In this document: piece after piece, positions 15,551 through 20,669 of the stretch
Layout: the number at the start of each line of letters is the position of its first letter
How positions within the stretch are numbered: position 1 is the stretch's first letter
NCBI GenBank assembly: GCA_003219435.1
Contig: QHOW01000007.1
Location: 1-33,577, forward strand
Direction: 5' to 3'
Source: Verrucomicrobiota bacterium
GTDB taxonomy: Bacteria; Verrucomicrobiota; Verrucomicrobiia; Chthoniobacterales; UBA10450
DNA length: 33,577 nucleotides
The notes under the pieces: model-generated
The model's database searches: none
Told to the model about the DNA's origin: nothing
What the model saw: only the letters and a program-made list of their open reading frames with translations
Translations under genes and position numbers: made by a program

Positions 15551-16039
15551 TTATTCTCTGGAGTTGCTCGGTCGATCTTGTCTAAAGGGATCGATGATCC
15601 GTGGCCAGTCTTTCGCCTGCGCGCACAACCCAGCAGCTACGGGATTTTCTCGGATGTAATTCATTTTGGCTGAGAGTTGTTCGCCGCGCTCATCCTCCCG
15701 CAGACGGCGATCGAAATATCCTTCCTGCCACATCACTCCGTTCTTATATGCGTGAAAACGTTTCCAGTCGCCAATGACGCCGCTCATCGATTCATCGCGA
15801 GGGAACGACAAAAGCGCGTGCAAATGATCCGGCATCAAAACGAACAGGTTGATGTGCCATCGGCGTTTAGAGTCATAAAACTGCGCTGACTTAAGGAGTA
15901 CCTGCGCCAACGATGCATCAACTAGCTGGCGTTGTTCCATTTTCCGATCAGGAGAGATACGGATGTGAAACGGCGCGCCTGGTTGAATCCAGTGAGGTAC
16001 TGTGTGATGCAACCGCTGCGGAAATCCGTGGTAAATCAC
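15551..16039 (-). CDS. REP-associated tyrosine transposase-like (Y1_Tnp/HUH) protein
   Basis: LFVLMPDHLHALLSFPRD (HUH), WQEGYFDRRLREDE, MNYIRENPVAAGLCAQAKDWP, typical of RAYT/PF01797-like proteins. Confidence 0.85.
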   Translation of the reverse strand: MIYHGFPQRLHHTVPHWIQPGAPFHIRISPDRKMEQRQLVDASLAQVLLKSAQFYDSKRRWHINLFVLMPDHLHALLSFPRDESMSGVIGDWKRFHAYKNGVMWQEGYFDRRLREDERGEQLSAKMNYIRENPVAAGLCAQAKDWPRIIDPFRQDRPSNSRE

Positions 16040-18961: not shown

Positions 18962-19074
18962 GGGAAATATGCGCCCGCTTCTCAGTGAACAAAAGCGAAA
19001 CTGTAGGGGATTTCGCTCGTGGTTCAATTCGTGATCGAATTTCGGTGAGCAAGAGCACGAGGTAATCAGCTTCT

Positions 19075-19661
19075 CATTAACACCGGCCTTCAGGCCGGTG
19101 ATCACGAGCGAAAGATAGACATAAGCCGTTTCAACGGCCTACGATCCGGAGGATGTCCGCTCATTCGTACTCTCGTTGCTGGGTTCACTTAATTTGGGGA
19201 ACTCTGAATCGCGAGAAACTGCTGAACAAAACGGCTGCGGCGCGTGTATCTCGCTATCTTGCCGAATACGCTGAAAAGCAAGGCGTTTACATGAAAATCA
19301 ATTACGTAAACGCGGACCACGTTCATACGCTTGTCGATCTTCCAACTGCCCTCTCAATCGAGAAACTGATGCAGCTCATAAAGGGAAGCTCTTCGCATTG
19401 GATCAATTCGTCCAACCTAATCACAGGAAAATTCGCCTGGGGCAGAGGATATGGCGCCTTCTCAGTGTCGGAATCGAATGTGGATCAGGTCGCCGGATAT
19501 ATAAGGCGACAAGAGGAACATCATCGCGTGAGTACATTCGCCGAGGAACTCAGGGAATTCATCGATCGCCACGGACTACGCTGGAAAGATGAGGGAAGCC
19601 GTTAAAACGGCTTCGGATCCCTCGACACGCGTCGTCACCGGCCTCAAGGCCGGTGTTAATG
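19075..19661 (+). mobile_element. minimal Y1-transposase element bounded by mirrored double hairpins
   Basis: 27-bp terminal inverted repeat CATTAACACCGGCCTTCAGGCCGGTGA (19075-19101) versus reverse complement of 19635-19661 (one mismatch); inner hairpins GCCGTT-TC-AACGGC (19125-19138) and GAAGCCGTT-AA-AACGGCTTC (19595-19614). Confidence 0.8.
19153..19605 (+). CDS. Y1/HUH transposase (IS200/TnpA-REP-like)
   Basis: SRCWVHLIWGTLNREKLL, INYVNADHVHTLVDLP (HUH), VDQVAGYIRRQEEHHR (candidate catalytic Tyr). Confidence 0.87.
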   Translation: MSAHSYSRCWVHLIWGTLNREKLLNKTAAARVSRYLAEYAEKQGVYMKINYVNADHVHTLVDLPTALSIEKLMQLIKGSSSHWINSSNLITGKFAWGRGYGAFSVSESNVDQVAGYIRRQEEHHRVSTFAEELREFIDRHGLRWKDEGSR

Positions 19662-19753
19662 AAGATTCCGTCGAACCGATACTCTGTTTTGTAACCCTTT
19701 TTAACGACGTAACGACGAAAACGTGGGGAAGCCCAATCGACTTTCCATCTCGC

Positions 19754-20452: not shown

Positions 20453-20471
20453 TTCAACTGTATCGGCTACA

Positions 20472-20596
20472 GGTGGATCGACCGCTCCATCGGGCGATGT
20501 TAAATAATGCGCCTTCGGCGCAAAATTAGCATCGAGCTCGCCACAGGACGAGTCCGTGTCGCCGCGGCGACCGGACAAGGGACTGCTCGATCCACC
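20472..20596. repeat. MITE-like element between the sensor kinase and response regulator genes
   Basis: Terminal inverted repeat GGTGGATCGACCGCTCC (20472) versus reverse complement of GGACTGCTCGATCCACC (20580-20596); internal hairpin TGCGCC-TTC-GGCGCA. Confidence 0.5.
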
Positions 20597-20669
20597 TTGC
20601 TTCATTCACCGTCTTTATCGGCCCTCCTTTTACAATTCGCCGCTCGGCGGCTTGCCCGATGTAGGAGAT

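Follow-up and report, generated by a model that had tools for sequence, protein, structure and literature searches.

Mirrored hairpin ends and dispersed transposase-free hairpin doublets associated with a subclass 1.2 Y1 transposase gene in soil Verrucomicrobia

What kind of element is a single HUH/Y1 transposase gene enclosed by two mirrored pairs of hairpins? The question is raised by a unit of about 593 bp in the genome of an uncultured soil Verrucomicrobium, located at positions 19072 to 19664 (plus strand) of the 33.6-kb stretch of DNA analyzed here (the window). The original prediction for this locus was a RAYT flanked by a REPIN-like pair of hairpins, or a novel hybrid.

Both ends of the unit are inverted copies of one module, which consists of a TYTCATTAA tag, an outer hairpin, a variable spacer of about 20 nt, and an inner hairpin. 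On the plus strand the left tag, TCTCATTAA (19072–19080), is followed by the outer hairpin CACCGGCCT-TC-AGGCCGGTG (19081–19100), whose homologs show compensatory changes, and by the inner hairpin AAGCCGTT-TC-AACGGCCT (19123–19140), whose perfect part is GCCGTT-TC-AACGGC (19125–19138). The gene tnpA, which encodes a 150-aa transposase of the subclass 1.2 type, occupies 19153–19605 on the same strand. Its TAA stop codon (19603–19605) forms part of the inner hairpin on the right, GAAGCCGTT-AA-AACGGCTTC (19595–19614, plus strand), and this arrangement (AGCCGT-TRA) recurs in the orthologs L058, L059, L060, and L063. The right outer hairpin, CACCGGCCT-CA-AGGCCGGTG (19636–19655, plus strand), is the mirror image of the left one, and the right tag reads CTTCATTAA on the minus strand (19656–19664). 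The outer inverted repeat (19075–19101 and 19635–19661) is identical at 26 of 27 positions and can be extended to 33 nt at 91% identity. The single gene between two mirrored hairpin pairs, the 27-bp repeat with its 26 matches, the two inner palindromes, and the stop codon within one of them had all been predicted, and all coordinates agree. The hairpins of the unit exceed chance. The outer-hairpin pattern occurs exactly twice in the 33.6 kb, compared with an expectation of 0.01; three of the seven perfect hairpins in the whole window (stem of at least 9, loop of at most 4) are inside the unit; and z-scores for single-strand DNA folding are −4.4 to −6.0 for the unit ends and about −10 for the transposase-free doublets described below.

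The boundaries of the unit, slightly wider than the predicted 19075–19661, are taken from a logo of 99 ends, over which conservation starts abruptly at TYTCATTAA with nothing conserved farther out; the search pattern used to collect these ends fixed part of the tag, leaving the outermost T, Y, and T free. An alignment of 42 end sequences has the order tag, outer hairpin, variable spacer, and inner hairpin. The outer hairpin stem covaries: its pair 20–28 is CG in 24 of the 42 aligned ends, GC in 8, AU in 3, and UA in 1. The two helices together contain 23 double changes, compared with 4.2 in shuffles, although the aligned ends are mutually related and these changes are not independent events. 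It is very unlikely that the hairpins are terminators of transcription or signals for RNA processing that flank the gene by accident. They are extragenic and GC-rich, and some lie between convergent genes, as such signals might, but the outer hairpins are not followed by a run of T, ends that pair do so only in convergent orientation and carry a sharp tag, the mirrored plan also flanks unrelated tnpA lineages, and the hairpins have no match in Rfam.

The transposase matches the Y1_Tnp family (PF01797, 91.2 bits) and the IS200 model NF033573 (71.2 bits, above the cut-off of 55), and its best solved relative is the TnpA of IS608. Against the REP-associated (RAYT) model NF047646 it scores 26.9 bits, below the cut-off of 80. 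Its HUH motif is DHVH, and its single catalytic tyrosine is found in YIRRQEEHH, which has the form Y---Q--HH. In a tree of 50 proteins, from which the published subclass 1.2 reference members are absent, 35 Y---Q--HH proteins form one clade (support 100/98), IS200-type TnpA proteins are sister to this clade, and the class-2 RAYTs form a separate clade (100/99). Subclass 1.2 was characterized by Quentin et al. (2018, PMC6006769) by Y---Q--HH, DH[IV]H, and a length of about 148 aa, with WQ as the MEME consensus of its W motif. The window protein resembles this subclass in its Y---Q--HH and DHVH motifs, its length of about 150 aa, its low copy number, and the low identity between copies within a genome. 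Its W motif is WG (FAWGRGYG), unlike the consensus. Because this motif deviates, we assign the protein to TnpA_Y1 subclass 1.2 by its tyrosine motif and its place in the tree; the relatives L071, L073, and L076 have WQ, and by comparison of these sequences WG is a residue-level difference within the clade.

A class-2 RAYT identity was accordingly rejected for the protein, which has Y---Q--HH instead of Y---NP, scores far below the RAYT cut-off, and falls outside the RAYT clade. The GTAG-tagged REP reading fared no better. The minus strand from 19142 to 19125 does read GTAGGCCGTTGAAACGGC, as predicted, but GTAG adjoins the inner palindrome in only 1 of 36 ends scored, that of the window copy, and is therefore ascribed to chance; the GTAG or GTGG that marks the foot of RAYT REP hairpins is not a feature of this family. 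A true RAYT (class-2 TnpA_REP) with GTAG-type REPINs is thus scarcely credible here, even though REPIN-like doublets, their extragenic position, a stable tnpA locus, the extra end modules that adjoin tnpA in L058 and L062, and the one copy reading GTAG would all suit it. The part of the original prediction that stands is the REPIN-like, convergent arrangement with mirrored ends, and its wording of a novel hybrid comes near to what the evidence shows.

End modules are dispersed, many of them without a transposase gene. The source genome contains a second tnpA unit (C307; 67% amino acid identity, with a frameshift in the assembled sequence), a tnpA-free unit of 145 bp with all four hairpins (C146), and single ends. 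The sequence CATTAACACCGG occurs six times in this genome, compared with none for the reversed control; one of the six, in C54, is without a hairpin and is probably a chance occurrence. The original prediction had looked to transposase-free double hairpins as support and to hairpins found nowhere else in the genome as evidence against it; C146 and the large numbers of doublets in relatives provide the former, and C146, C307, and the single ends exclude the latter. Of 35 genomes from the genus, 27 have matches to a covariance model of the end module (R1). G023 has at least 80 such ends; no more than 82 candidates were scored per genome, which makes the high counts lower bounds. Outside the genus, the model matches 1 of 23 genomes of the same order, and this match is marginal (E = 0.0099). 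No close relative was found in phage and plasmid collections. The 92 ends of four further genomes comprise 34 convergent doublets of 97 to 225 bp, 3 tnpA-bearing pairs of 601 to 607 bp (spans that include about 5 nt of flank per side), and 18 other ends. There are no direct-repeat pairs among them, and two pairs that look divergent result from matches overlapping at a single palindromic place. The doublets avoid coding frames and are extragenic: an open frame spans 5 of 28 doublets, compared with 70% of control windows. Inverted palindrome doublets of this kind, dispersed and extragenic, are what defines REPINs.

Several end-rich genomes, such as G015 (96% complete, 17 ends), lack a close tnpA, so the doublets in them may be relics or may have been moved by another enzyme. 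A doublet subfamily with the same tag and plan has other stems, CACCTCGC..., and an inner hairpin AACCGCTT...AGCGGTT (L263–L265, L268, L269, L271, L272). Contig 94 of G023 contains, at 11–1143, three copies of a tandem unit of about 485 bp with a hairpin doublet in each.

Searches with joined flanks revealed doublets (L274, L273, L258, and L260) that are present in one genome and absent at the orthologous site elsewhere; at the L273 site a lone degenerate outer hairpin persists in one relative. Occupied sites differ from unoccupied ones over some 25 to 60 nt of flank as well, and other repeats are sometimes found there instead. No clean empty site was seen among the relatives of either tnpA locus described below (A and B) or in the joined-flank searches, which give presence or absence without an exact junction. 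Comparison of these sites, with their unclean junctions and differing flanking bases, indicates that the doublets are likely mobile. An insert of 630 to 740 bp at the doublet site L267 was considered as a possible carrier of tnpA and rejected; it has a GIY-YIG-like ORF, named by eye. A small GIY-YIG-like ORF between the inverted repeats TCATCCCGAGC and GCTCGGGATGA lies in L302 (about 1600–2300) and L299 (about 1600–2400), at the site that in G058 has a hairpin doublet. Together with its inverted repeats, this ORF is possibly another mobile or repeat-spreading unit.

Mirrored ends are widespread in subclass 1.2. Each upstream flank was compared with the reverse-complemented downstream flank, and 47 of 51 tnpA loci scored above the 95th percentile of the shifted controls (n = 167); nearly all of the 51 loci have an intact Y---Q--HH motif, they are not independent of one another, and a few of the controls happened to land on hairpins. 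The mirrored loci are from Verrucomicrobiota, Planctomycetota, Ignavibacteriota, Bacteroidota, and others, and include two on Bacteroidota plasmids (L316, L317). None of five IS200-type control loci is mirrored (scores of 11 to 16, within the range of the controls), in agreement with the earlier remark that typical IS200 ends are not perfect mirror images. In a second subclass 1.2 lineage, which has the tag ATAG and the unrelated hairpin CCCAGCGTT, pairs with tnpA between them measure about 600 bp and empty pairs 110 to 139 bp.

The gene itself behaves as a resident. At locus A, between cysE and a response-regulator gene, tnpA is found in five genomes, and these copies form one clade (96/98). 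At locus B, in four other genomes, it adjoins the end of what is, by sequence, a putative ftsZ; it is oriented one way in L059 and L061 and the opposite way in L064 and L065, for which the tree requires one inversion. tnpA is under strong purifying selection, with a dN/dS of about 0.07 for L017–L058, the other pairs being at or near saturation at synonymous sites. Many copies are broken, and some of the breaks may be errors of metagenome assembly. The gene is stable, selected, and kept at fixed loci, its copies falling into clades by locus. In G009 and G018, locus A (L171, L181) has a different hairpin series (AGCGCC..., CCTGGGGC...), which resembles that flanking other subclass 1.2 genes such as L041–L046.

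These observations bear on whether the unit is an ordinary insertion sequence of the IS200/IS605 family with non-autonomous deletion derivatives (MITEs). Elements such as IS608 and ISDra2 share with it the HUH/Y1 catalytic core and hairpin ends, and the match above cut-off to the IS200 equivalog, the sister relationship to IS200-type TnpA, the compact one-gene plan, and the presence of copies at several different loci would all be expected of such an element. We nevertheless regard this as unlikely, given the contrast between the mirrored ends of the relatives and the unmirrored IS200-type controls, the fixed loci, and the report that the Y---Q--HH subclass lacks insertion sequence properties (PMC6006769). 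Copies are also few per genome and divergent rather than near-identical; the closest other copy in the source genome, a draft that is 85% complete, is the one with 67% identity. The original prediction held that grouping of the protein with IS605 TnpA would count against it: the protein is indeed related to the IS200 type, but it belongs to a clade of its own and has different ends.

The unit is probably a REPtron/TIRtron-like element built on a subclass 1.2 HUH/Y1 transposase, whose TnpA would copy or move the doublets in trans. This reading is preferred because both the anatomy of the unit and the population structure of its repeats agree with the elements described in BMC Genomics (2013, PMC3733652), in which a Y1 gene lies between inverted repeats; some TIRtron repeats are double palindromic, and some repeat families occur as dimers (PMC3733652). 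Here, too, the repeat on either side of a Y1 gene has dispersed copies elsewhere in the genome. The 26 described TIRYTs fall in subclasses 2.1, 2.2, and 2.5 of class 2 (PMC6006769), whereas the window enzyme is of class 1. The system resembles that of RAYTs and REPINs (Bertels and Rainey 2011, PMC3116915) in having a resident low-copy enzyme gene and dispersed extragenic doublets of inverted palindromes, and differs from it in enzyme class, in its two hairpins per end, and in its tag, TYTCATTAA instead of GTAG.

TnpA would recognize the hairpins once they have folded in single-stranded DNA, such as the lagging-strand template, and its tyrosine would cleave at or beside the tag, by chemistry that is known from studied relatives (PMC8266576) and presumed for the window protein. 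Short doublets could then be copied or moved in trans, while the tnpA unit itself would seldom move and, like a RAYT gene, would stay in residence.

Subclass 1.2 was described as IS200-like proteins from mainly Cyanobacteria and Bacteroidetes that have no REPs, generally no IS200 secondary structures at the ends, and no shared insertion sequence properties (PMC6006769). The mirrored two-hairpin ends and dispersed doublets of the window family differ from this description, which appears incomplete, and open-licence papers yielded no description of hairpins accompanying subclass 1.2. In several phyla, genes of this subclass appear to come with mirrored hairpin ends of their own, and in the genus studied the miniature doublets are a likely repeat partner. 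If TnpA moves them, palindrome systems resident in genomes have arisen from Y1 transposases on more than one occasion, and one intergenic palindrome family of soil Verrucomicrobia has been traced to its source. More tentatively, and with less than even confidence, subclass 1.2 enzymes may constitute separate, phylum-spanning palindrome-disseminating systems, with two or more hairpins per end and a mirror-image plan that would allow either strand of the DNA to be processed; they would represent a domestication of IS200-like transposases independent of the RAYTs.

Other repeats and HUH genes were also noted. About 3 kb away, the minus strand (15551–16039) encodes a second, RAYT-like HUH protein with a Y---NP motif, which scores 76.5 bits against NF047646 (cut-off 80); the sequence directly adjoining its gene shows no conspicuous hairpins. 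The source genome has 14 matches to the NF047646 family, some of which are fragments or subclass 1.2 genes. Parts of the region upstream of the response-regulator gene (20471–20600) recur many times in genomes of the genus, most of which also contain numerous copies, on either strand, of a palindromic repeat of about 85 bp (L065:408–495).
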